From Pseudomonadota bacterium (GTDB taxonomy: Bacteria > Desulfobacterota > Desulfovibrionia > Desulfovibrionales > Desulfovibrionaceae), in contig JAHIUD010000076.1 in NCBI GenBank assembly GCA_018817515.1, positions 1 to 40,718 of the forward strand: a DNA stretch of 40,718 nucleotides, given 5' to 3'. Below, piece after piece: positions 8,030 to 37,225 of the stretch (position 1 is the stretch's first letter; each line of letters opens with the position of its first letter). Both the position numbers and the translations under genes were made by a program. The notes beneath the pieces are model-generated. The model was given only the letters and a program-made list of their open reading frames with translations. It made no database searches and was not told where the DNA came from.

Positions 8030-9604
<1,575 letters not shown>

Positions 9605-13662: not shown

Positions 13663-13680
13663 CTGGCACAGCCCTTGCCT
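13663..13680 (+). promoter_or_regulatory. Sigma-54 (-24/-12) promoter for nifH operon
   Basis: CTGGCACAGCCCTTGCCT contains TGGCAC (13664-13669) and TTGC (13675-13678) with 10 bases between the invariant GG and GC. This is a near-perfect sigma-54 promoter. The start would fall near 13690, with the AGGAG ribosome site (13711-13715) and nifH ATG (13722) following. Confidence 0.93.
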
Positions 13681-13709: not shown

Positions 13710-14561
<852 letters not shown>

Positions 14562-14591: not shown

Positions 14592-14936
14592 ATGATCATG
14601 GTGAGAGCAATCGTTCGTCCCGAGAAGGCTGATGACGTTTTGGCAGCCCTCATGGACGCCGGCTTCCCCGCAGTGACCAAGTTCTCCGTGGCCGGTCGCG
14701 GCAAGCAGCGCGGCATCAAAATCGGCGAAGTGACCTACGACGAGATCCCCAAGACCATGCTCATGAGCGTGGTCAAGAACGCCGACCGCGACTTCGTCAT
14801 CGAGACCATCATGGCTGCGGCGCGCTCCGGCGTGAAGGGCGCCTTCGGTGACGGCAAGATCTTCGTCAGCCCGGTGGAAGAGGTCTACACCGTCAGCTCC
14901 GGAGTTTGCGAAACGGCCACACCCGAGGAGGCGTAG
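14592..14936 (+). CDS. nifI1: P-II-like nitrogenase regulator NifI1
   Basis: The 114-residue protein has the P-II fold pattern: N-terminal strand MVRAIVRPEKADDVLAAL, a shortened T-loop region (~36-55) and the C-terminal GDGKIFVSPVEEVYTV motif typical of GlnB-like proteins. It lacks the usual uridylylated YRG tyrosine motif of GlnB. Its place between nifH and nifD identifies it as NifI1. In methanogens NifI1 and NifI2 form a complex that binds NifDK and blocks activity when nitrogen is sufficient, relieved by 2-oxoglutarate. The same post-translational switch-off is inferred here. Confidence 0.95.
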   Translation: MIMVRAIVRPEKADDVLAALMDAGFPAVTKFSVAGRGKQRGIKIGEVTYDEIPKTMLMSVVKNADRDFVIETIMAAARSGVKGAFGDGKIFVSPVEEVYTVSSGVCETATPEEA

Positions 14937-14941
14937 CCTTT

Positions 14942-15316
14942 ATGAAGGAAGTCATCGCAGTGGTGCGCATGAACATGATGAACCGCACCAAGCAGGCCCT
15001 CACCGACGCCGGCATCGACGGCTTCTTCGCCCACGAGGCGCAAGGCAGGGGCGTCGGCATGGTCAATCCCCACGTTCTGCAGGGTGCGGCCAGCGGCTAT
15101 GAAGAGGCAGTGGCGTTGCTGGGCGAGAAGGGCAAGCTCTACCCCAAGCGCATGGTCACCGTGGTGGTGCCGGACAAGGCCGTCAAGACAGTGATCAAGA
15201 CCATCATCGAAGTGAACCAGACCGGCAAGCCCGGCGACGGCAAAATCTTCGTCATGCCCGTGGCCGACGCAGTGCGCGTGCGCACCGCCGAGTCCGGTGA
15301 AAAGTCCATCATCTAA
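14942..15316 (+). CDS. nifI2: P-II-like nitrogenase regulator NifI2
   Basis: The 124-residue protein starts at ATG 14942, five bases after the nifI1 stop, with GAGGAG of the ribosome site lying inside the end of nifI1; translation is therefore probably coupled. It is P-II-like: KEVIAVVRMNMMNRTKQAL at the start, a T-loop region with GRGVGMVN and LYPKRMVTVVVPD, and GDGKIFVMPVADAVRVRT at the end. NifI2 carries the larger T-loop that in the methanogen system contacts dinitrogenase. It partners NifI1. Confidence 0.95.
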   Translation: MKEVIAVVRMNMMNRTKQALTDAGIDGFFAHEAQGRGVGMVNPHVLQGAASGYEEAVALLGEKGKLYPKRMVTVVVPDKAVKTVIKTIIEVNQTGKPGDGKIFVMPVADAVRVRTAESGEKSII

Positions 15317-15351: not shown

Positions 15352-16986
15352 ATGGCCATACAGAACAAGCACGCTGAGTGGACCCCCACCGAGGTCAAGG
15401 AGGAGATGCTCAAGAAGTATCCCGCCAAGGTGGCCCGCAAGCGCGCCTCGTCCATCCTCATCAATGAGGCGCTCTCCAACACCACGCCGGAAATCCAGGC
15501 CAACGTGCGCACCATTCCCGGCATCATCACCATGCGCGGCTGCACCTACGCCGGTTGCAAGGGCGTCATCATGGGCCCCACCCGGGACATCGTGAACCTG
15601 GTGCACGGGCCCATCGGCTGCAGCTTCTACGCCTGGCTCACCCGCCGCAACCAGACCGACGCAGGCGAGGCCGGCGAGAACTACATGACCTACTGCTTCA
15701 GCACGGACATGCAGGACTCCGACGTCATCTTCGGCGGCGAGAAGAAGCTCAAGGCCGCCATCCAGGAAGCCTACGACCTGTTCCATCCCAAGGGCATCGC
15801 GGTGTTCGCCACCTGCCCGGTCGGCCTCATCGGCGACGACATCCACGCCGTGGCCAAGGAGATGAAGGAAAAGTTCGGCGACTGCAACGTCTTCGCCTTC
15901 TCCTGTGAAGGGTACAAGGGCGTCAGCCAGTCCGCCGGCCACCACATCGCCAACAACCAGGTCTTCAAGCACCTTGTTGGCCAGAACGACGAGAAGAAGC
16001 CCGGCGAGTACAAGATCAACCTGCTCGGCGAGTACAACATCGGCGGCGACGGTTTCGAGATCGACCGCATCCTGAAGCTTTGCGGCATCAGCAACATCGC
16101 CACCTTCTCCGGCAACTCCACTTACGACCAGTTCGCCAGCGCGCACACGGCCGACTTGTCCTGCGTCATGTGCCACCGCTCCATCAACTACGTGGCCGAC
16201 ATGCTGGAGACCAAGTACGGCATCCCCTGGATCAAGGTGAACTTCATCGGCGCCGAGGCCACGGCCAAGTCCTTACGCAAGATCGGCCAGTACTTCGGCG
16301 ACAAGGCCCTCATCGACCGCATCGAGGCCGTCATCGCCGCCGAGATGCCCGCCGTGAAGGCCGCCATCGCCGACGTGCTCCCCCGCACCCAGGGCAAGAC
16401 CGCCATGCTCTTCGTCGGCGGCTCGCGCGCCCACCACTACATGGAGCTCTTTGGCGAGCTGGGCATGAAGACCGTGAGCACGGGCTACGAGTTCGGCCAC
16501 CGCGACGACTACGAAGGCCGCGAAGTCATCCCGAACCTCAAGGTCGACGCGGACTCCCGCAACATCGAGGAGATCGAGGTCGAGGCCGATCCCGACAAGT
16601 ACGCCCCGCGCAAGACCGCGGAGGAGCTGAAGGCTCTTGAGGACGGCGGCTTCGAGTTCAAGGATTACAAGGGCCTGATTCCGGACATGGACAAGGGCAC
16701 CCTCGTCATCGACGACCTCAATCAGTACGAGGCAGAGAAGCTGGTCGAGCTGATCAAGCCGGACCTCTTCTGCGCGGGCATCAAGGAGAAGTACTCCATC
16801 CAGAAGCTCGGCATCCCCATGAAGCAGTTGCACAGCTATGACTACGGCGGACCCTACGCGGGATTCAAGGGCGCGGTGAACTTCTACAAGGAGATCGACC
16901 GCCTCGTGAACAGCAAGGTCTGGGGTTACATGAAGGCCCCCTGGCAGGAGAACCCCGAACTCTCGGCCACCTACGTCTGGGAATAG
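15352..16986 (+). CDS. nifD: Nitrogenase MoFe protein alpha chain
   Basis: The 544-residue subunit holds FeMo-cofactor and half of the P-cluster. P-cluster ligands are C64 (MRGCTYAGC), C90 (HGPIGCSFY) and C155 (ATCPVGLIGDD). FeMo-cofactor ligands are C274 (VMCHRS) and H494 (KQLHSYDY); the homocitrate-side SQSAGHH motif (~192-198) is also present. It is about 50 residues longer than Azotobacter NifD because of an insertion around 390-450, as in clostridial and methanogen-type molybdenum enzymes, which matches the presence of nifI1 and nifI2. AAGGAG lies upstream of the start. It acts with NifK as a heterotetramer in the cytoplasm. Confidence 0.99.
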   Translation: MAIQNKHAEWTPTEVKEEMLKKYPAKVARKRASSILINEALSNTTPEIQANVRTIPGIITMRGCTYAGCKGVIMGPTRDIVNLVHGPIGCSFYAWLTRRNQTDAGEAGENYMTYCFSTDMQDSDVIFGGEKKLKAAIQEAYDLFHPKGIAVFATCPVGLIGDDIHAVAKEMKEKFGDCNVFAFSCEGYKGVSQSAGHHIANNQVFKHLVGQNDEKKPGEYKINLLGEYNIGGDGFEIDRILKLCGISNIATFSGNSTYDQFASAHTADLSCVMCHRSINYVADMLETKYGIPWIKVNFIGAEATAKSLRKIGQYFGDKALIDRIEAVIAAEMPAVKAAIADVLPRTQGKTAMLFVGGSRAHHYMELFGELGMKTVSTGYEFGHRDDYEGREVIPNLKVDADSRNIEEIEVEADPDKYAPRKTAEELKALEDGGFEFKDYKGLIPDMDKGTLVIDDLNQYEAEKLVELIKPDLFCAGIKEKYSIQKLGIPMKQLHSYDYGGPYAGFKGAVNFYKEIDRLVNSKVWGYMKAPWQENPELSATYVWE

Positions 16987-16999
16987 CGAGGATCACACT

Positions 17000-18373
17000 A
17001 TGTTGCTCAGACACACACCCAAGGAAATCAACGAGCGCAGCGCTCTGGTCATCAACCCGGCCAAGACCTGCCAGCCCATCGGCGCAATGTACGCAGCACT
17101 CGGCGTCCACGGCTGCCTTCCGCACAGCCACGGCTCCCAGGGCTGCTGCGCCTACCACAGAAGCGCCTTGACCAAGCACTACAAGGAGCCCATCAGCGCC
17201 GCCACCAGCTCCTTCACCGAGGGCGCCAGCGTCTTCGGCGGCCAGGCCAACCTGCTGCAGGCCATCGAGAACATCTTCACGGTCTACGAGCCGGAAGTCA
17301 TCGCCGTGCACACCACCTGCCTGTCGGAGACCATCGGCGACGACATCAAGCAGATCCGCGACAAGGCGGAGAAGCAAGGCCTCGTGCCCAAGGGCAAGCA
17401 CATCATCTACTGCAACACCCCGAGCTACATCGGCTCGCATGTCACCGGCTTCTCCAACATGGTCAGAGGCATGACCGAACTCGCCGAAAACACGGGCAAG
17501 AAGAACGGCAAGGTCAACGTCATCCCCGGCTGGGTCGAGCCTTCGGACATGGAGGAGATCAAGCGCATCGCGGCCCTCATGGCCGTGCCCATCACCCTGT
17601 TCCCGGACACCTCCGGCGTGCTGAACGGTCCCCTCTCCGGCGAATACCACATGTTCCCGGAAGGCGGCGTGACCATCAAGGAGCTCAAGGAAGCCGGCGA
17701 TGCCATCGGCACCCTGGCGCTGGGCGAATGGTGCAGCGCGGACGCTGCACGCACCCTGGACACCCGCTGCAAGGTGCCCTGCAAGGTGCTGGACATGCCC
17801 TTCGGGCTCAAGGCCACGGACCGCTTCGTGGACACCCTGCGGACCATCGCGGGCACCAGCGTGCCCGAGGAGATCACCCGCGAGCGCGGCCAGCTGGTGG
17901 ACATGATCAGCGACTCCCACCAGTACTACTACCAGAAGAAGGTTGCGCTCTACGGCGACCCCGACCAGTTGATCGCCATGACCGAGTTCCTGGTGTCCAT
18001 CGACATGTGGCCCACGCACCTTGTCACCGGCACCCCGGGCAAGAAGTTCGAGAAGCGCATCCAGGAACTGACCGCGCACCTGCCCTATGAGGTCAACGTC
18101 AAGGCCGGCGGCGACATGTTCCTGCTGCACCAGTGGATCAAGAACGAGCCCGTGGACCTGCTCATTGGCAACACCTACGGCAAGTACATCGCCCGCGACG
18201 AGGACGTGCCCTTCCTGCGCTGGGGCTTCCCCATCCTGGACCGCATGGGGCACCAGTACTTCCCCACCGTCGGTTACAAGGGCGGGCTGCGCCTCCTGGA
18301 GAAGATCCTGGGCCTGATCCTGGACCGCAAGGACCGCGACGACTCCGAGATCCAGTTCGAGCTGACCCTGTAA
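17000..18373 (+). CDS. nifK: Nitrogenase MoFe protein beta chain
   Basis: The 457-residue subunit has P-cluster ligands C24 (KTCQPIG), C49 (HGSQGCC) and C107 (TTCLSETIGDD). The NTPSYIGSHVTGF segment corresponds to the serine-containing P-cluster loop. It lacks the ~50-residue N-terminal extension of Azotobacter NifK, as usual for the clostridial/methanogen-type group. It starts 13 bases after nifD, behind a GCGAGGAT ribosome site, and ends just before a strong stem-loop at 18392-18421 that may protect the nifHDK message. Confidence 0.99.
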   Translation: MLLRHTPKEINERSALVINPAKTCQPIGAMYAALGVHGCLPHSHGSQGCCAYHRSALTKHYKEPISAATSSFTEGASVFGGQANLLQAIENIFTVYEPEVIAVHTTCLSETIGDDIKQIRDKAEKQGLVPKGKHIIYCNTPSYIGSHVTGFSNMVRGMTELAENTGKKNGKVNVIPGWVEPSDMEEIKRIAALMAVPITLFPDTSGVLNGPLSGEYHMFPEGGVTIKELKEAGDAIGTLALGEWCSADAARTLDTRCKVPCKVLDMPFGLKATDRFVDTLRTIAGTSVPEEITRERGQLVDMISDSHQYYYQKKVALYGDPDQLIAMTEFLVSIDMWPTHLVTGTPGKKFEKRIQELTAHLPYEVNVKAGGDMFLLHQWIKNEPVDLLIGNTYGKYIARDEDVPFLRWGFPILDRMGHQYFPTVGYKGGLRLLEKILGLILDRKDRDDSEIQFELTL

Positions 18374-18421: not shown

Positions 18422-18475
18422 CCCCGGGGCGGGACAAACGCCGCCATGAACAGGCCGCACGAACAGGAGCCTCAG

Positions 18476-19825
18476 ATGACCAACGCGACCAATCCCAGCC
18501 TCACCCGGTCCGCCTGCGCAAAGGGCGGGAGCATCTACCTGCCCGTGGCAGCCAAGACCAACGTGCGCCGCCGCTTCGGCGAGCCCGAGACGCCGGGCCG
18601 CGCCCTTTCCCCCCGCGACGTCTGCCAGTGGCTGGACCGCGTGCTGGCCGACACCACGGACGGCGGCGTGAAGCTTTCCACCGTTGGCATCAACGGCCCC
18701 GGCGACCCCCTGGCCGACCCGGCCACGACCCTTGAGACCCTGCGCGCCGTTCGCGCCGCGCACCCGGAGCTGGCCCTGAGCCTGACCACCATCGGCCTGT
18801 GCCCCCAGGACACCACCATCGCCGAACTGGCCGGCCAGCTCGCCGCGGCCGGTGTCTCGCAGGTGACGCTGCTGGTGGACGCGGTGGACCCGGTCATCGT
18901 GGAAAAGCTTTTCGCCTGGATTCGTCCCGGCAAGCGCACCCTGCCCCTGCCCGAGGCCTGCCGCATGCTCGTGGACTCCCAGGCCCAGGCCATCCGCTTC
19001 TTTCGCGAGGCCGGACTCTTCGTCAAGGTCAACATGACCGTGTACGCGGGCATCAACGAAGACCACGTGCCCGACGTGGCGAGCATCGTGGCGTCCCTTG
19101 GCGCGGACATGCTGGCCGTGCTGCCCTTCACCCCGGCCGCCCCGGTTCTGGCCGCCAGCTCCTGCGGTTGCGACAGCGTGCCCTGCACGCCTGTGAAGTG
19201 TTCCTCCTGCGCCACGTCCTCCAGCTGCGGCAGCAAGCCCGCCGAGCTGCCCGACGCCCTGGCCGAGGAGCTGGAGACCCCGGCCCTGCCCCCGCTGGCG
19301 CCCGAACGCCTGGCCGAGCTGCGCGCCACCGCCGCGCGGATCATCGCCCTGGTGCCCGAGGCCGACCCCTGCGGCCAGGACATCACCTGGGTTGAAAACG
19401 CCGGGGCCGCCGCAGTGCTGGACCTCCAGAACCCGGCCCTGCCCAAGCCCGCGCCCGGTCGCCCCAACGTGGCCGTGGCCAGCTCCGGCGGGCTTGAGGT
19501 CGACCTGCACCTGGGCCAGGCCATCCGCTTTCTGATCTACGGCCCCCGCGAGCGCGACGGCCTGCCGAGCCTTTTGTGCACCCGCGACGCCCCGGAGCCG
19601 GTGGCCACGGGCTCCGGCACGGGCGACGCGCGCTGGAACGCCCTGGCCGACACCCTGTCCGACTGCTTCGCCATCCTGGCCTCCAGCGTGGGCCAGAACC
19701 CCCGCAAGGTGCTCTCCGAGCGCGGCATCACGGTCATGACCACCGAGGCCGACGTCCAATCCGCAGTGGACGCCCTGTTCGGCGGCGGAAAAAAAAACGG
19801 CAAGAAACGTGTGAAAGCTGACTGA
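18476..19825 (+). CDS. NifB paralogue without radical-SAM cysteines, with C-terminal NifX-like domain
   Basis: The 449-residue protein (start at ATG 18476 with AGGAG upstream; an earlier ATG at 18446 has a weaker site) aligns by eye with NifB encoded at 23620. LPVAAKTNV matches NifB LPVAPKCNI, but the C-X3-C-X2-C cluster motif is replaced (KTNVRRRFG). The GPGDP SAM-site motif (74-78) and a VKVNMTVYAGIN strand (183-194) remain. The NifB HCRRC motif is lost. A new Cys-rich insert with C230, C232, C237, C242, C245 and C251 appears instead. Residues ~330-435 form the NifX/NafY-type cofactor-binding domain (VAVASSGGLEVDLHLGQA). It cannot be a normal radical-SAM enzyme and is probably a scaffold, carrier or NifB partner. 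Confidence 0.85.
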   Translation: MTNATNPSLTRSACAKGGSIYLPVAAKTNVRRRFGEPETPGRALSPRDVCQWLDRVLADTTDGGVKLSTVGINGPGDPLADPATTLETLRAVRAAHPELALSLTTIGLCPQDTTIAELAGQLAAAGVSQVTLLVDAVDPVIVEKLFAWIRPGKRTLPLPEACRMLVDSQAQAIRFFREAGLFVKVNMTVYAGINEDHVPDVASIVASLGADMLAVLPFTPAAPVLAASSCGCDSVPCTPVKCSSCATSSSCGSKPAELPDALAEELETPALPPLAPERLAELRATAARIIALVPEADPCGQDITWVENAGAAAVLDLQNPALPKPAPGRPNVAVASSGGLEVDLHLGQAIRFLIYGPRERDGLPSLLCTRDAPEPVATGSGTGDARWNALADTLSDCFAILASSVGQNPRKVLSERGITVMTTEADVQSAVDALFGGGKKNGKKRVKAD

Positions 19826-19885: not shown

Positions 19886-20194
19886 ATGGCGCTGCCCGAA
19901 AAACTCATCCTGGTCTGTCAGAGCTTCCGCCTCGGCAAGGAGCCCAAGGGCATCTGCCACAAGGGCACCGAAGGCCTGGGCCTGCTGCAATACATCGAGG
20001 AAGGCATCCTGGACCGCGGCCTGGACGTGCAGGTGGCCACCACCGGTTGCCTCAAGCAGTGCGAAAAGGGCCCCATCCTGGTGATCCAGCCCGACAACCT
20101 CTGGTTCAAGGGCGTGAACAGCGAAGAAGCCATCGACGCCATCCTGGACGGCCTGGAATCCGGCGAGCCCGCCGCCGAGTACCTGTTGTCCTAG
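19886..20194 (+). CDS. Thioredoxin-like [2Fe-2S] ferredoxin
   Basis: The 102-residue protein has ligand cysteines C11, C24, C55 and C59 in the C-X12-C ... C-X3-C spacing of the thioredoxin-fold [2Fe-2S] ferredoxins (Clostridium pasteurianum type / Azotobacter FdI-Shethna family). AAGGAG precedes the ATG. Members of this family are common in nif operons and have been proposed as electron donors to nitrogenase or to NifB-type assembly steps. Here it sits between the degenerate NifB paralogue and the acetyltransferase. Its redox partner is not shown by the sequence. Confidence 0.92.
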   Translation: MALPEKLILVCQSFRLGKEPKGICHKGTEGLGLLQYIEEGILDRGLDVQVATTGCLKQCEKGPILVIQPDNLWFKGVNSEEAIDAILDGLESGEPAAEYLLS

Positions 20195-20218: not shown

Positions 20219-20689
20219 ATGACCGCCGCCTGCACCCTCCGCGAAGCCCGCACCACCGACCTGGACGCCCTGGTCGACCTTCTGGGGTTGCTCTTCACCC
20301 TGGAGGCGGACTTTGCGGTGGATGCGCGGCGGCAGCGTGACGGCCTCTTGCAGATGCTTGAGGGCGCCAAGAACCGCCTGGTGCTCGTGGCCACCATCCC
20401 AGGGGAAGGGGCTGGCGTGGTGGTCGGCATGGCCACTGCCCAGGTGGTCATCTCCACCGCCGAGGGCGGCCCGGCGCTCCTGGTGGAAGACGTCGTGGTC
20501 CGGCCCGAGTCCCGTGGCCAGGGCATCGGCCGCGCCCTGCTCGCGCGCATCGAAGCCTGGGGCCTGCGCCTGGGCGCCACGCGCCTGCAGCTCCTGGCCG
20601 ACAAGGGCAACGCGCCGTCCCACGCCTTCTACCGCGCCTGCGGCTTCACGCCCACCAACCTCGTCTGCCTGCGGCGCACCCTGCCCTAG
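20219..20689 (+). CDS. GNAT-family N-acetyltransferase in the nif operon
   Basis: The 156-residue protein shows the GNAT fold: the acetyl-CoA pyrophosphate loop RGQGIGRAL (99-107) after the VEDVVVRPE strand, and the C-terminal NAPSHAFYRACGF motif (131-143). It starts 24 bases after the ferredoxin stop with a GAGGAG ribosome site, and ends 26 bases before nifE, so it is inside the operon. The substrate is unknown. It could acetylate a nif protein lysine or a small metabolite such as an amine. It is not one of the classical nif genes. Confidence 0.88.
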   Translation: MTAACTLREARTTDLDALVDLLGLLFTLEADFAVDARRQRDGLLQMLEGAKNRLVLVATIPGEGAGVVVGMATAQVVISTAEGGPALLVEDVVVRPESRGQGIGRALLARIEAWGLRLGATRLQLLADKGNAPSHAFYRACGFTPTNLVCLRRTLP

Positions 20690-20715: not shown

Positions 20716-22167
20716 ATGACCGAGACAGCCAAGGCCATCACACCCGAGGTCATCACCTGCCCTGAAGAGCACGTGGCCATTTTTGAGGAAAGAAGGGACC
20801 AGATCCACCGCATCGGAGAAGGCGACTTCTCCATGGCCTGCAACCGCGACTCGCTGGCCGGGGCCGTGAGCCAGCGCGCCTGCGTGTTCTGCGGCTCGCG
20901 CGTGGTGCTCTACCCCATCGCCGACGCCCTGCACCTGGTGCACGGGCCCATCGGCTGCGCGGCCTACACCTGGGACATCCGCGGCTCGCTCTCAAGCGGC
21001 CCGGAGCTGCACCGCCTGTCCTTCAGCACCGATCTGCAGGAGCTGGACGTGGTTTTCGGCGGCGAGAAGAAGCTGGCCAAGGCGCTGGACGAGCTCATCC
21101 CGCGCTACGAGCCAAAGGCCGCCTTTGTTTACTCCACCTGCATCGTGGGCCTCATCGGCGACGATTTGGCCGCCGTGTGCAAGGCCGCCAGCGCACGTCA
21201 CGGCATCCCGGTCATCCCGGTGCAGAGCGAAGGCTTCAAGGGCAACAAGCGCGAGGGCTACCTGGCCGCGTGCAAGGCCATGCGCACGCTGGTCGGCACC
21301 GGCGACACCTCCGACATTTCGAAGCTGTCCGTGAACATCATGGGCGACTTCAACCTCGCGGGCGAGACCTGGATCATCAAGGACTACCTGAGCCGCATGG
21401 GCATCCAGACCGTGGCCGGAATCACCGGCGACGGCCGGGTGGACGACCTCCGCCGGGCGCACGGGGCCGGGCTGAACATCGTGCAGTGCTCCGGTTCCAC
21501 CCAGGACCTGGCCAAGATGATGCGCGACGACTTCGGCATCCCCTTCCTGCGCGTGTCCTGGATCGGCATCGAGGACGTGGCCGAGAGCCTGTACGCCATT
21601 GCCGAGCATTTCGAGCTGACCCAGCCGGAGCTCGCCGCAGGCATCATGGAGCGCACGAGCAAGCTGGTGCGCGAGGAGCTGGCGGTGCTCATGCCGCAGC
21701 TCAAGGAGCTCCGCCGCGACCTGGAGGGCAAGAAGGCCGCCGTCTACGTGGGCGGCAGCTTCAAGGCCTTCTCCCTGGTCAAGGCCTTCCGGCACCTCGG
21801 CATGGAGGTGGTCATCGTGGGCTCCCAGACCGGCACCGAGGAGGACTACCGCGAGCTGGCCGCCATCTGCGCGCCCGGCACCATCGTGGTGGACGACGCC
21901 AACCCGCTGGAGCTCTCGGCCTTCATCAAGGAGAAGGACGTGGACGTGTTCGTGGGCGGCGTGAAGGAGCGGCCCATCGCCTTCAAGCTGGGCGTGGGCT
22001 TCTGCGACCACAACCACGAACGCAAGATCGCGCTGGAAGGCTTCGTCGGCATGCTGAACTTCGCCAAGGAGATCCACGCCTCGGTCATGAGCCCCATCTG
22101 GCAATTCGTGCCCCGGCGTGAGCTTCAGAACAGCGCGGCCCCCAGCAACGCGGGCGAGGAGGCATAG
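20716..22167 (+). CDS. nifE: FeMo-cofactor scaffold subunit NifE
   Basis: The 483-residue protein resembles NifD. Its cluster ligands are C56 (RACVFCGS), C81 (HGPIGCAAY) and C142 (STCIVGLIGDD), and C258 (NIVQCSGS) aligns with the NifD cofactor cysteine. The NifD histidine that binds the cofactor is not matched. NifEN receives the NifB product (NifB-co/L-cluster), then gains molybdenum and homocitrate with NifH. It starts with a GGGA-type site 26 bases after the GNAT gene; its stop is 3 bases before nifN, so the two are coupled. Confidence 0.97.
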   Translation: MTETAKAITPEVITCPEEHVAIFEERRDQIHRIGEGDFSMACNRDSLAGAVSQRACVFCGSRVVLYPIADALHLVHGPIGCAAYTWDIRGSLSSGPELHRLSFSTDLQELDVVFGGEKKLAKALDELIPRYEPKAAFVYSTCIVGLIGDDLAAVCKAASARHGIPVIPVQSEGFKGNKREGYLAACKAMRTLVGTGDTSDISKLSVNIMGDFNLAGETWIIKDYLSRMGIQTVAGITGDGRVDDLRRAHGAGLNIVQCSGSTQDLAKMMRDDFGIPFLRVSWIGIEDVAESLYAIAEHFELTQPELAAGIMERTSKLVREELAVLMPQLKELRRDLEGKKAAVYVGGSFKAFSLVKAFRHLGMEVVIVGSQTGTEEDYRELAAICAPGTIVVDDANPLELSAFIKEKDVDVFVGGVKERPIAFKLGVGFCDHNHERKIALEGFVGMLNFAKEIHASVMSPIWQFVPRRELQNSAAPSNAGEEA

Positions 22168-22170
22168 GCC

Positions 22171-23592
22171 ATGAACGACACGACCGTCCTGAACCACGTC
22201 GCCGGCAGAAACGTCATCGACAGCCCGGGCAACGACTACAAGGGCCCGAGCAACGTCTCCACCACCAACGCCTGCAAGCTGTGCACGCCGCTTGGCGCCA
22301 CCCTGGCCTTCAAGGGCGTGGAGAACGCGGTGAGCTTCCTGCACGGCTCCCAGGGCTGCGCCACCTACATGCGCCGCTACATCATCAGCCATTTCCGGGA
22401 GCCCATGGACATCGCGTCCTCGGCGCTGGGCGAAAAGAACGCCATCTACGGCGGCGGCCCGAACCTCAAGAAGGGGCTGCTCAACGCCATGCAGAAGTAC
22501 GGCGCGGGCGTCATCGGCGTGGCCACCACCTGCCTCACCGAGACCATCGGCGACGACGTGGCCCGTCTGCTCATCGAGTTCCGCGAGGAGTTCAAGGACC
22601 TGCCCCTGGCCCACCTGGTGCACGTGTCCACCCCGAGCTACTCCGGCACGCACATGGACGGCTTCCACGGCGCGGTCAAGGCCATCGCCGACCAGCTTTG
22701 TGTGGAGAAGGCCCCTGCCAACTCCCGCGTGAACCTGTTCAGCGGCATGGTCAGCCCGGCGGACATCCGCCACCTGAAGGAGATCGTTCGCGGCTTCGGC
22801 GTGGAGCCCATCCTCCTGCCCGACTATTCCGAGACGCTGGATGCCCCGGCCCTGCTGGAATACGAGAACATCCCCTCGGGCGGAACGAGCGTGGCCGACA
22901 TTAGGGCCATGTCCGGCGCGCGGGCCTCCATCGAGCTTGGCCGCGCCATCTCGACCCAGGACACCGCCGGAACCTCGCTGGCCGAGCGCTTCAACACCCC
23001 GCTGTTCCGCCTGGGCCTGCCCATGGGCATCCGCGAGACCGACGCGCTGTTCGCGGCGCTCAAGTCCATCACCGGCTTCGAGGCCCCACGCGACCTGCTG
23101 CTGGAGCGCGGCCGCTACATCGACTCCCTGGTGGACGGCCACAAGTACGTGTCGGGCCTCAAGGCCGTGGTCTACGGCGAGGAGGACCTGTGCATCGGGC
23201 TGACCAGCTTCCTGGCCGAGATCGGCGTCAAGCCGGTGCTGGTGGCCACGGGCGCGAAGAACCGCAACCTGGCCGCGCACATCGAGGCTGCCTGCGGCTC
23301 CGTGCTGCGCGAGATGCCCATAATCCGGGAGGGCGCGGACTTCTTCGACATCGTGGAAGAGGCCAAGACCCTCGCCCCGGACCTGCTGGTGGGCCACAGC
23401 AAGGGCCAGCGGGCCGCGCGCGAGTGGAACATCCCGCTTCTGCGGGTGGGCTTCCCCATCCACGACCGTTTCGGCGGCCAGCGCCTGCTGCACCTGGGCT
23501 ACCGGGGCGCGCAGAGCCTCTTCGACCGCCTGGTGAATCTCGTCCTGGAAAAGAAGCAGAACGATTCCGACATCGGCTACGGATACCTCTAG
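22171..23592 (+). CDS. nifN: FeMo-cofactor scaffold subunit NifN
   Basis: The 473-residue protein resembles NifK. Cluster cysteines are C35 or C38 (NACKLCTPLGA), C63 (HGSQGCATY) and C121 (TTCLTETIGDD). The start follows the nifE stop by 3 bases and its ribosome site (GAGGAGG) lies inside nifE. With NifE it forms the heterotetramer on which the cofactor is matured before transfer to apo-NifDK. The nifE-nifN-nifB order places the NifB-co maker next to its acceptor. Confidence 0.97.
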   Translation: MNDTTVLNHVAGRNVIDSPGNDYKGPSNVSTTNACKLCTPLGATLAFKGVENAVSFLHGSQGCATYMRRYIISHFREPMDIASSALGEKNAIYGGGPNLKKGLLNAMQKYGAGVIGVATTCLTETIGDDVARLLIEFREEFKDLPLAHLVHVSTPSYSGTHMDGFHGAVKAIADQLCVEKAPANSRVNLFSGMVSPADIRHLKEIVRGFGVEPILLPDYSETLDAPALLEYENIPSGGTSVADIRAMSGARASIELGRAISTQDTAGTSLAERFNTPLFRLGLPMGIRETDALFAALKSITGFEAPRDLLLERGRYIDSLVDGHKYVSGLKAVVYGEEDLCIGLTSFLAEIGVKPVLVATGAKNRNLAAHIEAACGSVLREMPIIREGADFFDIVEEAKTLAPDLLVGHSKGQRAAREWNIPLLRVGFPIHDRFGGQRLLHLGYRGAQSLFDRLVNLVLEKKQNDSDIGYGYL

Positions 23593-23619: not shown

Positions 23620-24927
23620 ATGCAGACCATCATCTCCCCCGCCCCCTCCGCCGTTGTCGACCCGAAGTCCGTCAAGCACCCCTGTTTCAACAAGGAATCG
23701 TCCGGCTCCTGCGGCCGCGTGCATCTTCCGGTGGCGCCCAAGTGCAACATCCAGTGCAACTATTGCAACAGGAAGTACGACTGCGTGAACGAGTCGCGCC
23801 CGGGCGTCACCAGCGGCATCCTGAAGCCCTTCCAGGCGCTGGAATACACCCGCCAAGTGCTGGACAAGGAGCCGCGCATCACAGTCATCGGCATCGCCGG
23901 GCCCGGCGACCCCATGGCCAACCCGGCGGAGACGCTGGAGACCATGCGGCTCATCCGCAAGGAATACCCGCACATGCTCTTCTGCCTGTCCAGTAACGGC
24001 CTGGCCATGCCGGAGTACCTGGACGACCTGGCGGAGCTGGGCGTGACCCACGCCACGGTGACGCTGAACACCATCGACCCGGCCATCGGCGCCAAGATCT
24101 ACTCCTGGGTGCGCGACGGCAACGTGGTCTACCGGGGCCAGGACGCCGCCGAGCTCATCCTCAGCCGCCAGTTGGAAGCCATCGCAGGCCTCAAGGCGCG
24201 CGGACTGGCCGTGAAGGTCAACACCATCGTCATTCCCGGCGTCAACGACCACCACATCCTGGCCGTGGCCAAGAAGGCAAACGAGCTTGGCGTGGACCTG
24301 CAGAACCTCATGCCCATGTTCCCCACCGAGGGCACGCCCTTTGGCGACCTGATCGAGCCGAGCAAGGAGCAGATAAACGCCCTGCGCGCCGAGGCCGGAC
24401 CGCTGGTGTCGCAGATGACCCACTGCCGCCGCTGCCGCGCCGACGCCGTGGGCCTCTTGTGCAACGACCGCTCCACCGAGCTTGGCGGCGTCCTTTCCGC
24501 GTGCAGCAAGATGGCCCCCAAGGCCCAGGACGACCGGCCCTACGTGGCCGTGGCCACCCGCGAGGGCCTCTTGGTGAACCTGCACCTGGGCGAGGCCAAG
24601 CGCTTCCAGATCTGGGGACTGGCCGAGAACGGCGGCTTCCGCCTTGTGGAGGAACGCCAGGCCCCGTCCGCTGGCTGCGGCCCCTCGCGCTGGGAGGACC
24701 TGGCCAAGCTCTTGTCCGACTGCCGGGCCGTGCTGGTCAACGCTCTGGGCGACGCCCCGCGCAAGATCCTGACCGAGCGCGGCACCATGCCCGCGGCCTG
24801 CTCCGGATTCATCGAGGACGCCCTGGCCCTGGCCTTCGGCGAGGACGGCATAGCCCGGCTGGAGGCCCTCAAGGCCCGGCGCGGCGGCCTCGGCAAGTCC
24901 TGCTGCGGCACGGGCGACGGCTGCTGA
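23620..24927 (+). CDS. nifB: FeMo-cofactor maturase NifB (radical SAM plus NifX-like domain)
   Basis: The 435-residue protein has the radical-SAM cysteines C42, C46 and C49 (KCNIQCNYC), further cluster ligands C22, C31, C269 and C272 (HCRRC), and the SAM motif GPGDP (94-98). The VKVNTIVIPGVND strand is typical. The C-terminal ~120 residues (from RPYVAVATREGLLVNLHLGEA) form the NifX/NafY-type cofactor-binding domain. A Cys-rich tail (SCCGTGDGC) ends the protein. NifB fuses two 4Fe-4S clusters, inserting carbide from SAM and a ninth sulfur, to form NifB-co for NifEN. AAGGAG precedes the start. This is the functional copy; compare the degenerate paralogue at 18476. Confidence 0.98.
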   Translation: MQTIISPAPSAVVDPKSVKHPCFNKESSGSCGRVHLPVAPKCNIQCNYCNRKYDCVNESRPGVTSGILKPFQALEYTRQVLDKEPRITVIGIAGPGDPMANPAETLETMRLIRKEYPHMLFCLSSNGLAMPEYLDDLAELGVTHATVTLNTIDPAIGAKIYSWVRDGNVVYRGQDAAELILSRQLEAIAGLKARGLAVKVNTIVIPGVNDHHILAVAKKANELGVDLQNLMPMFPTEGTPFGDLIEPSKEQINALRAEAGPLVSQMTHCRRCRADAVGLLCNDRSTELGGVLSACSKMAPKAQDDRPYVAVATREGLLVNLHLGEAKRFQIWGLAENGGFRLVEERQAPSAGCGPSRWEDLAKLLSDCRAVLVNALGDAPRKILTERGTMPAACSGFIEDALALAFGEDGIARLEALKARRGGLGKSCCGTGDGC

Positions 24928-24972: not shown

Positions 24973-25221
24973 ATGACCAGAGCCACGTGGGAAAAAGTGT
25001 TCGAATACGCGTCCATGCCGGTCCACGGCACCCTCTCGCGCAAACTGCGCAAGGGCATCAAGATCCAGGTCAACGAGGGCCGCATCTACGAGATGGCCAC
25101 CGTTTTCCTGGGCGAGGACTTCCTGCGCCTGAGCGAGACCAAAGGCAAAGAGATGATCAACACCTACTACGCCTGGGAGCAGCTCGTCTGCGTGCGCACC
25201 ATCGGCGACACAGAAAGCTAG
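24973..25221 (+). CDS. Small protein downstream of nifB, unknown function
   Basis: The 82-residue protein has a strong AAGGAGG ribosome site 5 bases before its ATG and begins 45 bases after nifB, so it is very probably translated as part of the nif operon. It has a basic middle (GTLSRKLRKGIKIQV), then predicted beta strands (RIYEMATVFLGEDFLRL) and an aromatic end (YYAWEQLVCVRTIG). There is one cysteine and no signal or membrane segment. The pattern suggests a small beta-barrel or OB/SH3-like protein. I do not recognise the family, and no function is claimed. Confidence 0.8.
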   Translation: MTRATWEKVFEYASMPVHGTLSRKLRKGIKIQVNEGRIYEMATVFLGEDFLRLSETKGKEMINTYYAWEQLVCVRTIGDTES

Positions 25222-25252: not shown

Positions 25253-25516
25253 GTGGACACGTTGACGCTTTTCGGGCTGGTGGCCGTGAGCCTGATGCTC
25301 CTGTGCCACAGCCTGGAAGACAGGAGCCCCTGGTTCGTTCTGGCCTTTGCCGGGTCCTGCGGCCTGGGTTCGGTCTACGGGTTCGTGCAGGGGGCCTGGC
25401 CCCTCGGCCTGGGGGTGTTGGTGTGGGCCATGGTGGCCGTGAGCCGCTGGCTCAGGCTGCGCAGGGAGCAGGTCGGCAAGTACCGTCTCCAAAGCCTGCG
25501 CGGTTTGACGAATTAA
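25253..25516 (+). CDS. Small two- to three-helix membrane protein at the end of the nif operon
   Basis: An 87-residue frame begins at GTG 25253 behind a GGGGG stretch; no better start is visible. It contains hydrophobic helices at ~4-19, ~26-45 and ~48-64, with the short motif LEDRSPWFVLAFAG between the first two and a basic C-terminus (RWLRLRREQVGK). The motif LEDRSPWF...GS.YGF.QGAWP looks like a family of small inner-membrane proteins I have met in other proteobacteria, but I cannot name it with confidence. It ends 43 bases before the operon terminator. The function is unknown. Confidence 0.65.
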   Translation: MDTLTLFGLVAVSLMLLCHSLEDRSPWFVLAFAGSCGLGSVYGFVQGAWPLGLGVLVWAMVAVSRWLRLRREQVGKYRLQSLRGLTN

Positions 25517-34627: not shown

Positions 34628-37225
34628 TCATGGCGCATCCTTGCTGGCGGCCAGAAATTCCTCGGCCAGTCGGCTGGCCTGGGCCTCGTCGGCAAGCCCC
34701 ATGTCCATGCGCTGCGTGCGCACCAGCAGGCGGCCCAGAAGGACGAGGGCGCTCTGGACTGCCCCGGCCTCGGCGCGGGAGAGCCGGGCATCGAGCATAT
34801 CCCCGCGCACCCGTACCTCGAAACCGCCTGCGCTCAGCACCTGGGTGATGAACCCGATGCGCAGCAGCCGCTGCTCCGGCAGCCCGCCGCCGCCCTTGAA
34901 GCGGAAGGCCACGTAGTTGGCCTCGGCCCTCGGCCCGCACAGGCTGTCCAGCACCGCGAAATGATAGCCGAAGCGCACCAGCAGGTGCAGGTAATCGGCG
35001 GACAGGAGCGCGTAGCTGGCCAGCAGGCGCGAGTCCTTGCGGAAGATGCCGGCGCTGATGCGGTCGAACTCCTGCCAGTCGCAGGAGAACCCCGTGTCCC
35101 GCCAGGGCTCGCCGGAGCGGGCCAGGCCCTGCCACAGGGCCTGCATGGGCAGGCTGGCCACGCCCTCTGGCGCGATGTCCTGATCGCTGCGGGCAGCCGG
35201 CTCAAGCCCGCCGCCCAGGTCCAATAGATAGAGCGACAGCGGCAGGTCCGAGCGCAGCCGCCGGGCCTTGCCCAGGCCCCGGCCCGACCTGTCGGAATCC
35301 TCCGCCTCGCCCAGCCCGACCATCTCGGCCACGGCCTTCTCGTGGCAAAAGCGCACCAGGTCGTGCAGGGAGGCGCAGCCAGCCGGGGCGAAGGCCGGGG
35401 CTTCGGGGTCCGTGAGCGCGAGGTGGCAGGTCTGCCGGGCCAGGTCCGCGAAGCGCTCCGCCAGGCGCTGGCGCTCCACGCCCTGCCTGCGCCTGGGGCC
35501 CTCCAGCAGGGACTGCGCGCAGCCGACGAGGATGCGGCCCCCAGTCGCGGCCCCAGTCGCGGCCCCAGTCGCGTCAACAGTGACCAGCAGGCCCTCGGGC
35601 AGGCGCGCGCGCAGGTCCTCCAGGCCAGAGACCACGGGCAATCCGGCCTCCCGCGCCACAGAGGCGAAGTGGCTGGCGCGGCTGCCCACCCTGGCCGCCA
35701 CGGCCGCCACGCTGTCCACGCAACGGGCCAGGGCCGGGGTCAGGCTATCCACGACCAGCACGCACCCAGCCGGGATGCGCGGAATATCCGCCGCGCCCTT
35801 GAGGTGGTGCACCGGCCCGCAGCCCCGGCCCGGTGCCACGGGGCTCAAGCCCTCAGCCAGAATCTTCTCGCCTGTTTCGCCCGGCTCGCCCGGCAGAGGG
35901 GAATCCTGCGCCCCGTCCGGCCGGACCACCTCTTCGCCGGGCTGCGCCTCGGGCGCAGCGTTGTAGGTGCGGGATTGCAGCACGAAGAGCCGCCCCTCCC
36001 GGTCGAGCGCCCACTCCACCTCCTGTGGCCTGCCGAACACCGACTCCAGCACCAGGCCGGTCAGCACCAGCTCGGAGAGCGCCGACTGGCCGAGTTCCAC
36101 GCCCGTGCCGCCGGACACGTCCAGCACCTGCATCGGCAACCGCCTGGCCACGCGCGCCACCCACGGGTCCACGCTGCCGGAGACCAGGGCGTCGCCCAGG
36201 CCCGGCAGGGCAAAGACCGACAGACACTTCCCGCCCTGGCCCGGGAGGGTGTCGCTGCTGTGCAGCACCCCGGCCGAGACCGCGTCGACCATGGGCAGCA
36301 GAAGCACGGCCATGGGCGAACAGTCGTCGGGCAGGCCGCAGCGTACGCGGTAGGTCACGGCCCTGGTGCGGTACTTGGCTGCCACCACGCGCCGGTAGGC
36401 GTCCACGATGTCATCCGGGGGCACATTGAGCTCGCTGGCGTACTGCCCGGCAAAGGAGAGCTCGCCGTCCTCGCCCACGGCGGAGCTGCGCACGGCCAAG
36501 AGGCCGCCGCCGAGCTCCGGACTGGCCGCAGCCGCACGCAGGGTCTGGGCCAGCTCCTCCGGCACCTGCGCGCCGAGCACCAGGGCCCGCATGCCGAGGC
36601 ACAGCGGACCGAGACGCTCCGGCCGCGAGAGATCCACCTGGCGCAGCAGCCGCTCCAAACGGGGCCGCAACTTGCCGGTGCTGAGGAACGCCCGGAAGGC
36701 ATCGGTGGTGATGACGAGCCCCGGCGGCACGCGCTGCCCGGCCTTTTGCACCGCGGCCAGGTTGGCCGCCTTGCCTCCGGCCAGGTCCTGCCTGCCCAGG
36801 GCCTGGGCCAGGGGCAGCACCAAGACGCTGGGGGAAAGTCCGGGGAAATGTCCGGCGCTGTCCGGCAGCGAGTGCGGCGGGTGCGGGTGGCACAGCGGCA
36901 GGCTGGCCTGAACGCTGGCCAGGACCTTGCCCCGGACCCTGGCAAAGGCCTCGCGCAGGCCCGCATAGCCCCCGGGATTCATGGCCAGCAGCCGCTCCAC
37001 CACCTCGCCCACGGCCTCGGACAACTGGCCGCACAGCCAGCGCGTCCTGGCCGGGTCCACCTGGCGCGCCCCGGCAAAGATTTCCTCCAACTCGGCCACC
37101 AGCAGCAGGCTGGCCTCGTCCGCAGCCAGCAGGGCCTTGAACGCCTCGTAGCGCAGGCGCAGGCGCTCCGCCGGGGCGAAGAGCGCCCGGCCCCAGCGCG
37201 TGAGCGTCTGCGACAGCTGGCCCAT
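34628..37225 (-). CDS. PEP-synthase-like phosphotransferase without the PEP/pyruvate barrel
   Basis: The 865 residues begin with a ~130-residue helical region, then the PPDK/PpsA ATP-grasp domain (~133-420: LAGGKAANLAAV, VRSSAVGEDGELSFAGQY, VEWALDREGRLFVLQSRT). A swivelling phosphohistidine domain follows (~480-570) with H519 in GSRASHFASVAREAG. The C-terminal ~290 residues do not resemble the PEP-utilising TIM barrel and are not recognised. ATP could phosphorylate H519, but the usual pyruvate acceptor site is missing, so the acceptor may be a protein or an unknown substrate, as in rifampin phosphotransferase. A short in-frame tandem repeat (TGAATGAATG) lies near 552-562. Its neighbours are a kinase, a receiver and a phosphatase. 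Confidence 0.85.
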   Translation of the reverse strand: MGQLSQTLTRWGRALFAPAERLRLRYEAFKALLAADEASLLLVAELEEIFAGARQVDPARTRWLCGQLSEAVGEVVERLLAMNPGGYAGLREAFARVRGKVLASVQASLPLCHPHPPHSLPDSAGHFPGLSPSVLVLPLAQALGRQDLAGGKAANLAAVQKAGQRVPPGLVITTDAFRAFLSTGKLRPRLERLLRQVDLSRPERLGPLCLGMRALVLGAQVPEELAQTLRAAAASPELGGGLLAVRSSAVGEDGELSFAGQYASELNVPPDDIVDAYRRVVAAKYRTRAVTYRVRCGLPDDCSPMAVLLLPMVDAVSAGVLHSSDTLPGQGGKCLSVFALPGLGDALVSGSVDPWVARVARRLPMQVLDVSGGTGVELGQSALSELVLTGLVLESVFGRPQEVEWALDREGRLFVLQSRTYNAAPEAQPGEEVVRPDGAQDSPLPGEPGETGEKILAEGLSPVAPGRGCGPVHHLKGAADIPRIPAGCVLVVDSLTPALARCVDSVAAVAARVGSRASHFASVAREAGLPVVSGLEDLRARLPEGLLVTVDATGAATGAATGGRILVGCAQSLLEGPRRRQGVERQRLAERFADLARQTCHLALTDPEAPAFAPAGCASLHDLVRFCHEKAVAEMVGLGEAEDSDRSGRGLGKARRLRSDLPLSLYLLDLGGGLEPAARSDQDIAPEGVASLPMQALWQGLARSGEPWRDTGFSCDWQEFDRISAGIFRKDSRLLASYALLSADYLHLLVRFGYHFAVLDSLCGPRAEANYVAFRFKGGGGLPEQRLLRIGFITQVLSAGGFEVRVRGDMLDARLSRAEAGAVQSALVLLGRLLVRTQRMDMGLADEAQASRLAEEFLAASKDAP
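35534..35570. repeat. 12-bp tandem repeat inside the phosphotransferase gene
   Basis: gcggccccagtc occurs twice exactly (35547-35558 and 35559-35570) with a third copy before it carrying one extra C (35534-35546). In the gene's frame it encodes a Thr-Gly-Ala-Ala repeat in a linker beside the phosphohistidine domain. A 12-base unit changes length without breaking the frame. Confidence 0.7.

Follow-up and report, generated by a model that had tools for sequence, protein, structure and literature searches.

A gene at positions 18476-19825 of the contig analysed here (the window, 40,718 nucleotides in full) encodes a real, conserved and most likely non-catalytic derivative of NifB. It is flanked by nifK on one side and a 2Fe-2S ferredoxin gene on the other, a gene place that we refer to as the slot. 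The slot protein has lost the catalytic site of NifB, occupies the same place in the nif operons of many relatives and has kept the His of its NifX-like domain, which is under selection. We propose, with a probability of about 0.55, that it is a pseudo-enzyme derived from a duplicated NifB which now acts on the NifDK side as a carrier of the NafY/NifX type, with NifB-co or FeMo-co as its cargo. Its cargo, client and partners, cofactor binding and the role of its barrel are the parts of this proposal that we infer.

The slot gene and the surrounding nif operon

The nearest named relatives of the window are Humidesulfovibrio MAGs. The features of its nif operon and of the slot gene, with their basis in brackets, are as follows.

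13664-13679, plus strand: sigma-54-type site TGGCAC-N5-TTGC, 42 nt before nifH (motif scan)
13722-14561, plus strand: nifH (over cut-off)
14592-14936, plus strand: P-II-like gene, presumably nifI1 by position (below cut-off)
14942-15316, plus strand: P-II-like gene, presumably nifI2 by position (below cut-off)
15352-16986, plus strand: nifD (over cut-off)
17000-18373, plus strand: nifK (over cut-off)
18465-18469, plus strand: AGGAG, likely ribosome-binding site, 6 nt ahead of ATG 18476 (sequence)
18476-19825, plus strand: slot gene, NifB-derived pseudo-enzyme of 449 aa with two domains (sequence, orthologues)
18524-19165, plus strand: dead radical-SAM barrel, about residues 17-230 (Pfam, alignment, low-confidence model)
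18554-18580, plus strand: KTNVRRRFG where NifB has KCNIQCNYC (lost CxxxCxxC); the next loop, C63/ExRP, is deleted
18695-18709, plus strand: GPGDP, kept (first G in 68/68 dead copies)
18914-18928, plus strand: AWIRP, signature of the dead copies (WxRP count)
19163-19228, plus strand: Cys block, residues 230-251, lineage-specific (sequence, family count)
19370-19372, plus strand: Cys299, second Cys of NifB CxxCRxDAxG, MaNifB C277 (alignment)
19454-19783, plus strand: NifX-like domain, Nitro_FeMo-Co (Pfam, sequence and fold matches)
19508-19516, plus strand: His345-Leu-Gly, counterpart of the cofactor ligand NafY H121 / NifX H35 (alignment)
19781-19822, plus strand: basic C-terminal tail GGGKKNGKKRVKAD (sequence, charge count)
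19886-20194, plus strand: 2Fe-2S ferredoxin-like protein, right border of the slot (NF041612 below cut-off; without Pfam match)
20219-20689, plus strand: GNAT acetyltransferase (Pfam)
20716-22167, plus strand: nifE (over cut-off)
22171-23592, plus strand: nifN, by position (best NCBIfam models NifEN, NifK and NifN, all under cut-off)
23620-24927, plus strand: true nifB, motifs present (NCBIfam, motif check)

The longest open reading frame at the slot opens at ATG 18446, upstream of ATG 18476. The shorter frame, 18476-19825, is the likely gene because the AGGAG fits ATG 18476 and because a relative that is 90% identical (L005) lacks a Met at the position corresponding to 18446; the coordinates of the original prediction are therefore correct.

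A scan of the window with what we take to be the sigma-54-type consensus, allowing up to one mismatch, gave seven matches against 8.1 expected, hits that are no commoner than chance, and only its place ahead of nifH marks the site at 13664 as a candidate. The presumed NifA-site motif TGT-N10-ACA matched the window once, at 36024, against 3.7 expected, and a NifA-like regulator on the minus strand (8030-9604) scored 527.1 bits, just under its cut-off of 528.85. The GNAT acetyltransferase gene (20219-20689) stands between the ferredoxin gene and nifE in many operons, not all. Two small open reading frames without a Pfam match follow nifB (24973-25221 and 25253-25516), the former of which is 58-68% identical in many relatives and represents a conserved small nif-linked protein of unassigned role.

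A NifB derivative without the radical-SAM site

The slot protein aligns over its whole length with the NifB of the window (23620-24927; BLASTP, 29% identity, 457 columns, E 5e-56). Its score for Pfam Nitro_FeMo-Co (PF02579) lies above the gathering cut-off (35.6 vs 26.3 bits), bearing out the prediction of an intact NifX-like C-terminal domain. Pfam Radical_SAM was missed (26.3 bits vs a cut-off of 29.5), with an alignment only from profile position 53 on, as was the NifB family TIGR01290 (136 vs 343.65 bits). No match of TIGR02663 (NifX) to the window's slot protein was found at 0.001, and the Pfam scan gave no NafY N-terminal domain in it. By the tests made, the slot protein belongs to neither NifB, NafY nor NifX; we infer that it is NafY/NifX-like in its working and NifB-descended. 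A whole-protein model from a three-row alignment has a pLDDT of 44, and the first structural match of the dead barrel in this low-confidence model is NifB 6y1x. The mean net charge of the tail over 15 residues is +4.6 in 72 slot proteins, +0.1 in NifB and 0 in five stand-alone forms of the NifX-like domain that are described below.

The loss of catalytic motifs is extensive. HPC, ExRP and CxxCRxDAxG, which are among the NifB motifs listed in PMC5715403 (cited, like the other papers given here by PMC number, for the part of its text that was available), are all absent from the window's slot protein, as is CxxxCxxC, in place of which it reads TNVRRRFG. The BLASTP alignment with the window NifB confirmed the original prediction that KCNIQCNYC has become KTNVRRRFG while GPGDP and the VKVN strand are kept. 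Of the AGPG motif, GPG is present and is preceded by N; TxTxN was not found, NifB TVTLN aligning to VTLLVD. HCRRC, which had been described as gone, is indeed replaced, but a counterpart of its second Cys survives as C299. One motif is peculiar to the dead copies, as we call slot proteins without CxxxCxxC: WxRP occurs in 68/68 of these, in 0/4 slot copies with an intact CxxxCxxC and in 0/81 NifB.

Ligand roles and numbering of NifB follow PMC7145814 (ligand roles also PMC6053413), and their mapping onto the window NifB and the slot proteins was made in the present analysis. All three radical-SAM Cys are kept in 57/57 NifB sorted by position, and the equivalents of C50, C54, C57 and C63 are gone in the 68 dead copies. 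Other ligands have persisted to varying extents: over the 68 dead copies, in counts that are dominated by the window's family, the equivalent of C30 is found in 53, of H43 in 48, of C129 in 41 and of C277 in 57. The respective numbers are 46, 42, 35 and 45 in the 51 dead copies of the window's family, and 3, 6, 6 and 9 in the 14 of other families. Among these K-site ligands the window's slot protein has only the C277 equivalent (C299) at the aligned places; the equivalents of C30, H43 and C129 survive in many members of its family outside its genus, which leaves open a possible cluster site in those proteins. An intact K1 site as a general rule was rejected, since it is kept neither in the 14 other-family genomes nor in the window protein.

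The six Cys reported as new at residues 230-251 were correctly placed (230, 232, 237, 242, 245 and 251), but the gain of a cluster is a local matter, as four of them (C237/242/245/251, C-x4-C-x2-C-x5-C) are conserved in 7/72 slot proteins and 0/81 NifB. All seven block-bearing proteins belong to one Humidesulfovibrio clade (support 97), and C230 and C232 are also present in only two of them, the window's and that of G008. In Humidesulfovibrio the four-Cys block occurs in exactly the 7/12 slot proteins without HPC/QPC; since the seven form one clade, this pattern probably reflects a single event rather than a statistical association. The Cys block may bind metal. As the key of the slot family it was rejected.

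Distribution of the slot gene

Some match to the slot protein was present in 36 of 59 relatives, and 107 of the 288 genomes of the family (Desulfovibrionaceae) matched at 1e-30, both figures including true NifB. Loci were fetched around part of the stronger matches and were chosen by similarity to the dead form, so the counts given here are no measure of prevalence and intact slot forms are possibly undersampled. The survey covers one phylum; a plasmid scan gave nitrogenase-type matches of other phyla.

A full slot gene was present at 54 loci, 51 without CxxxCxxC and three with it. Four further slot genes of the same family (G240 with the motif; G060, G059 and G030 without) and 14 more from a phylum sample of 395 genomes, which represent six other families and all lack the motif, bring the total to 72 genomes of seven families, 68 without CxxxCxxC and four with it. 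The original prediction had looked to orthologues for conservation of both of its changes: the loss of CxxxCxxC is conserved (68/72 full-length slot genes), the gain of the Cys block is not (7/72). Two of the intact copies, those of L051 (G029) and L149 (G240), have kept CxxxCxxC and CxxCRxDAxG and are without HPC, and may be active or half-way forms.

The order nifK-slot-ferredoxin was found in 14/14 fetched genomes of the six further families. In the window's family, nifEN lies mostly one or two genes downstream of the slot gene. In 6/14 other-family genomes nifE-N-B is not downstream within the stretch read, and the slot gene still adjoins nifDK; in five of these six, nifE-N-B is absent over about 5-7 kb or as far as the contig reaches, and in G698 nifN-nifB lies upstream of the slot gene. 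In genus g32 of an eighth family (f4), the slot gene encodes only a NifX-like protein that stands alone, about 110 aa in length (5/5 fetched genomes), which is 49-53% identical to the C-terminal domain of the slot protein in four genomes and 44% identical over a longer stretch in the fifth. The one g32 protein that was scanned had the C-terminal part of NifB as its sole NCBIfam match at 1e-5. No gene occupies the slot in G042, which represents a different genus of f4, in G425 or in two N. vulgaris plasmids, where nifK and the ferredoxin gene are 190 bp apart, and nifK is followed by nifE in G632 and G383.

A scan of the 288 Desulfovibrionaceae for stand-alone NifX found two proteins above 90 bits (about 95), neither over the cut-off. 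Both genomes (G184 and G293) are without the slot gene and have NifX directly between nifK and nifE; these NifX genes (L146:5173-5577 and L147:5288-5695) have the motif HFA, not HFG, and stand in divergent Desulfovibrionaceae nif operons. Most nif clusters without a slot gene in the 288 genomes have no strong NifX match either, so the slot gene is no simple substitute for NifX. Two genomes carry further NifX-like open reading frames besides the slot gene, one of 109 aa with HFG directly past nifB in G637 (L163, about 15858-16184) and one of 113 aa about 100 bp from the nifB match in G488.

The survey also brought to light other unusual nif genes. A 929-aa NifN-NifB-NifX three-domain fusion is encoded in G088 (L145:5279-8065, minus strand; genus g44, Desulfovibrionaceae), an architecture confined to Firmicutes according to the available part of PMC5715403. 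Matches of the nifX model in frames of more than 900 aa occur in seventeen g44 genomes and in some of g20, g47 and g55, G088 alone having been scanned. Extra NifB with motifs, and no other nif gene in the fetched stretch, were found at L102, L104 and L151 (G078, G080 and G079, respectively), that of G079 having a long Gly/Cys-rich stretch between the barrel and the NifX-like domain. G005 has a second nitrogenase-like cluster (L054, contig C36) that consists of H, two P-II-like genes, D, K and its own NifB; its D and K are only 33% like nifD/nifK, and it is possibly an alternative nitrogenase.

Selection and evolutionary history

The slot gene has dN/dS values of 0.18-0.44 in seven Humidesulfovibrio pairs, those of NifB being 0.15-0.23 in five pairs. 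In 50 genomes, mean pairwise identity of slot proteins vs NifB is 53% vs 77% in the barrel, 32% vs 63% in the linker and 63% vs 65% in the NifX-like domain; constraint has shifted from the barrel to the carrier domain in the slot protein. Within the genus, the slot protein is 52-60% identical to that of the window in 10/11 genomes, and nifK pieces are 81-95% identical. A pseudogene or an assembly or sequencing error was rejected in view of the open frames in the slot, the dN/dS values and the 68/72 slot genes without CxxxCxxC.

Trees were inferred for both domains as quick trees with long branches flagged (including a warning where G030 joins) and with 14 other-family proteins left out. In that of the NifX-like domain (83 rows), a branch (support 98) parts all 36 NifB from all 47 slot proteins, the stand-alone ones included. 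In the barrel tree (78 rows), NifB is on one side of a branch (99) and the four intact slot proteins form a branch of their own between NifB and the dead copies, with CxxxCxxC needing one change. For these two reasons the four orthologues that keep the Cys, which the original prediction would have read as a sign of a sequencing or local-decay artefact, look like lineage history and not local decay. The trees are consistent with a history in which NifB was duplicated once, the copy became fixed next to nifK and the radical-SAM site was lost a single time. For the stand-alone form as ancestral or as cut back, the AU p values were 0.50 and 0.46, favouring neither.

The NifX-like domain and its His

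The His of the HLG motif is found in all slot proteins (77/77), comprising 68/68 dead, 4/4 intact and 5/5 stand-alone forms. Three sites near it separate slot proteins from NifB: D in 65/68 dead copies vs N in 81/81 NifB; no E following HLG in 68/68 dead copies (H/Q in 64) vs E in 73/81 NifB; and Y/F in 68/68 dead copies vs W in 77/81 NifB. NafY and NifX have the D and the Y of the slot proteins, and S after HFG. Near the His, slot proteins are thus aligned with NafY/NifX at two sites, and at the third have only the loss of Glu in common with them.

The best match of the slot domain among solved structures is by sequence NafY (2.3e-6), followed by NifX (6.8e-5), the NifX-like domain of NifB itself matching NifX at 8.1e-5 and NafY at 1.8e-3. 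A model of the slot domain with a modest pLDDT of 68 likewise has NafY (1p90) and NifX (9ian) as its first predicted fold matches. By sequence and fold, the slot domain is slightly closer to NafY than to NifX, and the margin is small. NifX holds NifB-co via H35 and passes it to NifEN (PMC13128457), and NafY holds FeMo-co via H121 of its HFG motif, its N-terminal domain binding apo-NifDK (PMC8496260). The NifX-like domain of NifB itself is not essential in Klebsiella (PMC5715403).

Proposed function and alternative explanations

Because many relatives carry such a dead copy in the same location, the switched-off NifB copy is probably a delivery protein derived from an enzyme. The slot protein would no longer make NifB-co; rather, its C-terminal domain would hold NifB-co or finished FeMo-co through the His and then hand it on. 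Its working side would be NifDK, as for NafY, a placement we suggest because it has the same domain and His, a slightly closer match to NafY than to NifX and a linkage to nifDK that outlasts that to nifE-N-B. The dead barrel with its AWIRP motif may be a docking or sheltering module, and in genus g32, where the slot has no barrel, the carrier domain occurs by itself. The earlier suggestion of a pseudo-enzyme that carries NifB-co fits these data, with the His kept in 68/68 dead copies and the domain about as conserved as that of NifB.

Other explanations share part of this evidence. The same carrier could have NifB-co as its only cargo and NifEN as its client, being NifX-like and not NafY-like; it would have the same domain, and nifEN is mostly close by in the window's family, but the linkage to nifDK is the more lasting one and NafY is closer than NifX by its small margin, and we regard this version as rather unlikely. 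Pairing with an active paralogue is a common fate of dead paralogues, and a slot protein that pairs with active NifB and stabilises or tunes it would suit a NifB paralogue with fixed barrel residues (GPG and WxRP) whose gene, in the window, belongs to one run of genes with nifB. Such a role is unlikely given that the slot gene stays by nifDK in the 6/14 other-family genomes where nifB is not downstream, and that the g32 slot protein is without any barrel.

Potentially, the slot protein could instead be an Fe-S donor or store for NifB or NifEN, in which residual K1/K2 ligands or, in Humidesulfovibrio, the four-Cys block would hold a [4Fe-4S] (K-type) cluster. The many ligand equivalents in the 51 dead copies of the window's family point in this direction, as does the restriction of the block to proteins without HPC/QPC, as if one site had replaced another. 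Nevertheless, the window protein retains C299 alone among the aligned ligands, each of these ligands is kept in only 3 to 9 of the 14 other-family members, the block is confined to one clade and probably one event, and the gene stays by nifDK; the original suggestion of a partner supplying NifB or NifEN with Fe-S clusters is therefore improbable. A decaying duplicate without function would account for the faster evolution of the slot gene relative to its neighbours (as seen in the same-genus identities of slot protein and nifK), yet dN/dS is below 0.45, frames are open in the same slot in 72 genomes, the W, R and P of WxRP are fixed and the NifX-like domain is as conserved as that of NifB, so that we give decay very little credence.

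Some observations also tell against the preferred reading of a carrier on the NifDK side. Diazotrophs without a slot gene exist, as N. vulgaris, whose plasmids have none, fixes N2 (PMC10102598); G637 and G488 bear their extra NifX-like open reading frames besides the slot gene; the NafY N-terminal domain was not found in the slot protein by the Pfam scan; and the stand-alone form is without the basic tail. The empty slot of G042, from the family of the stand-alone form, the scarcity of strong NifX matches where the slot gene is missing, the dispensable NifX-like domain of Klebsiella NifB, the surviving C30, H43 and C129 equivalents in the window's family, the small margin of NafY over NifX and the possible undersampling of intact forms also weigh on this side. 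A more far-reaching version of the carrier reading, possible though doubtful, is a phylum-wide assembly family of anaerobes that arose via the killing of a NifB, in which the AWIRP barrel would be a dock for NifDK and the NifX-like part, retuned near its His, a chaperone for FeMo-co delivery, convergent with NafY and in one family cut back to the carrier alone.

Comparison with known proteins and significance

The slot protein combines traits of three known proteins and differs from each. With NifB it shares the two-domain order, its 29% identity, the GPG and VKVN strands and HLG in the C-terminal domain, but it is without CxxxCxxC, ExRP and CxxCRxDAxG and falls under the TIGR01290 cut-off. 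Its likeness to NafY lies in the C-terminal NifX-like domain with the His and the nearby D and Y, in NafY being the solved structure that the domain most resembles in both sequence and fold, and in its gene standing beside nifDK; the nafY gene lies after nifHDKT. However, its N-terminal half is a dead NifB barrel, whereas NafY has an N-terminal domain of its own. It has the domain of NifX and its His, but NifX is a single globular domain and the slot protein is a two-domain protein without a TIGR02663 match. In addition, its tail is basic, whereas the C-terminus of NifX docks on a positive patch of NifE (PMC13128457). The pseudo-SAM family TIGR04347, a radical-SAM relative taken as non-catalytic by its family name, was a weak match of one slot relative and is a different family.

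A literature search of titles and abstracts, with subscription journals mostly outside its coverage, found no description of the slot pseudo-NifB family. In PMC5715403, 28% of 390 putative NifB were set aside because motifs were missing, in most cases CxxxCxxC, and the motif-less entries were interpreted as misannotated NifX; as far as the available text of that paper indicates, those entries may include the slot family. Paenibacillus NifB3 and NifB4 are inactive NifB-like proteins, but these two-domain copies are said to keep Cx3Cx2C and represent a separate case (PMC8287671). The available part of PMC3464626 has no bearing on the slot family.

Dead copies may be counted among the genes of this phylum that are annotated as 'NifB' or 'radical SAM protein'. 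What is known of the carriers that operate between NifB, NifEN and NifDK comes mainly from Azotobacter and its relatives, and the transfer of nitrogen fixation to new hosts is limited by FeMo-co assembly as a bottleneck. If our reading is true, the pseudo-NifB would be a natural test of the role of the NifB barrel apart from its chemistry and, conserved by nifDK in anaerobes, would represent a new accessory factor.
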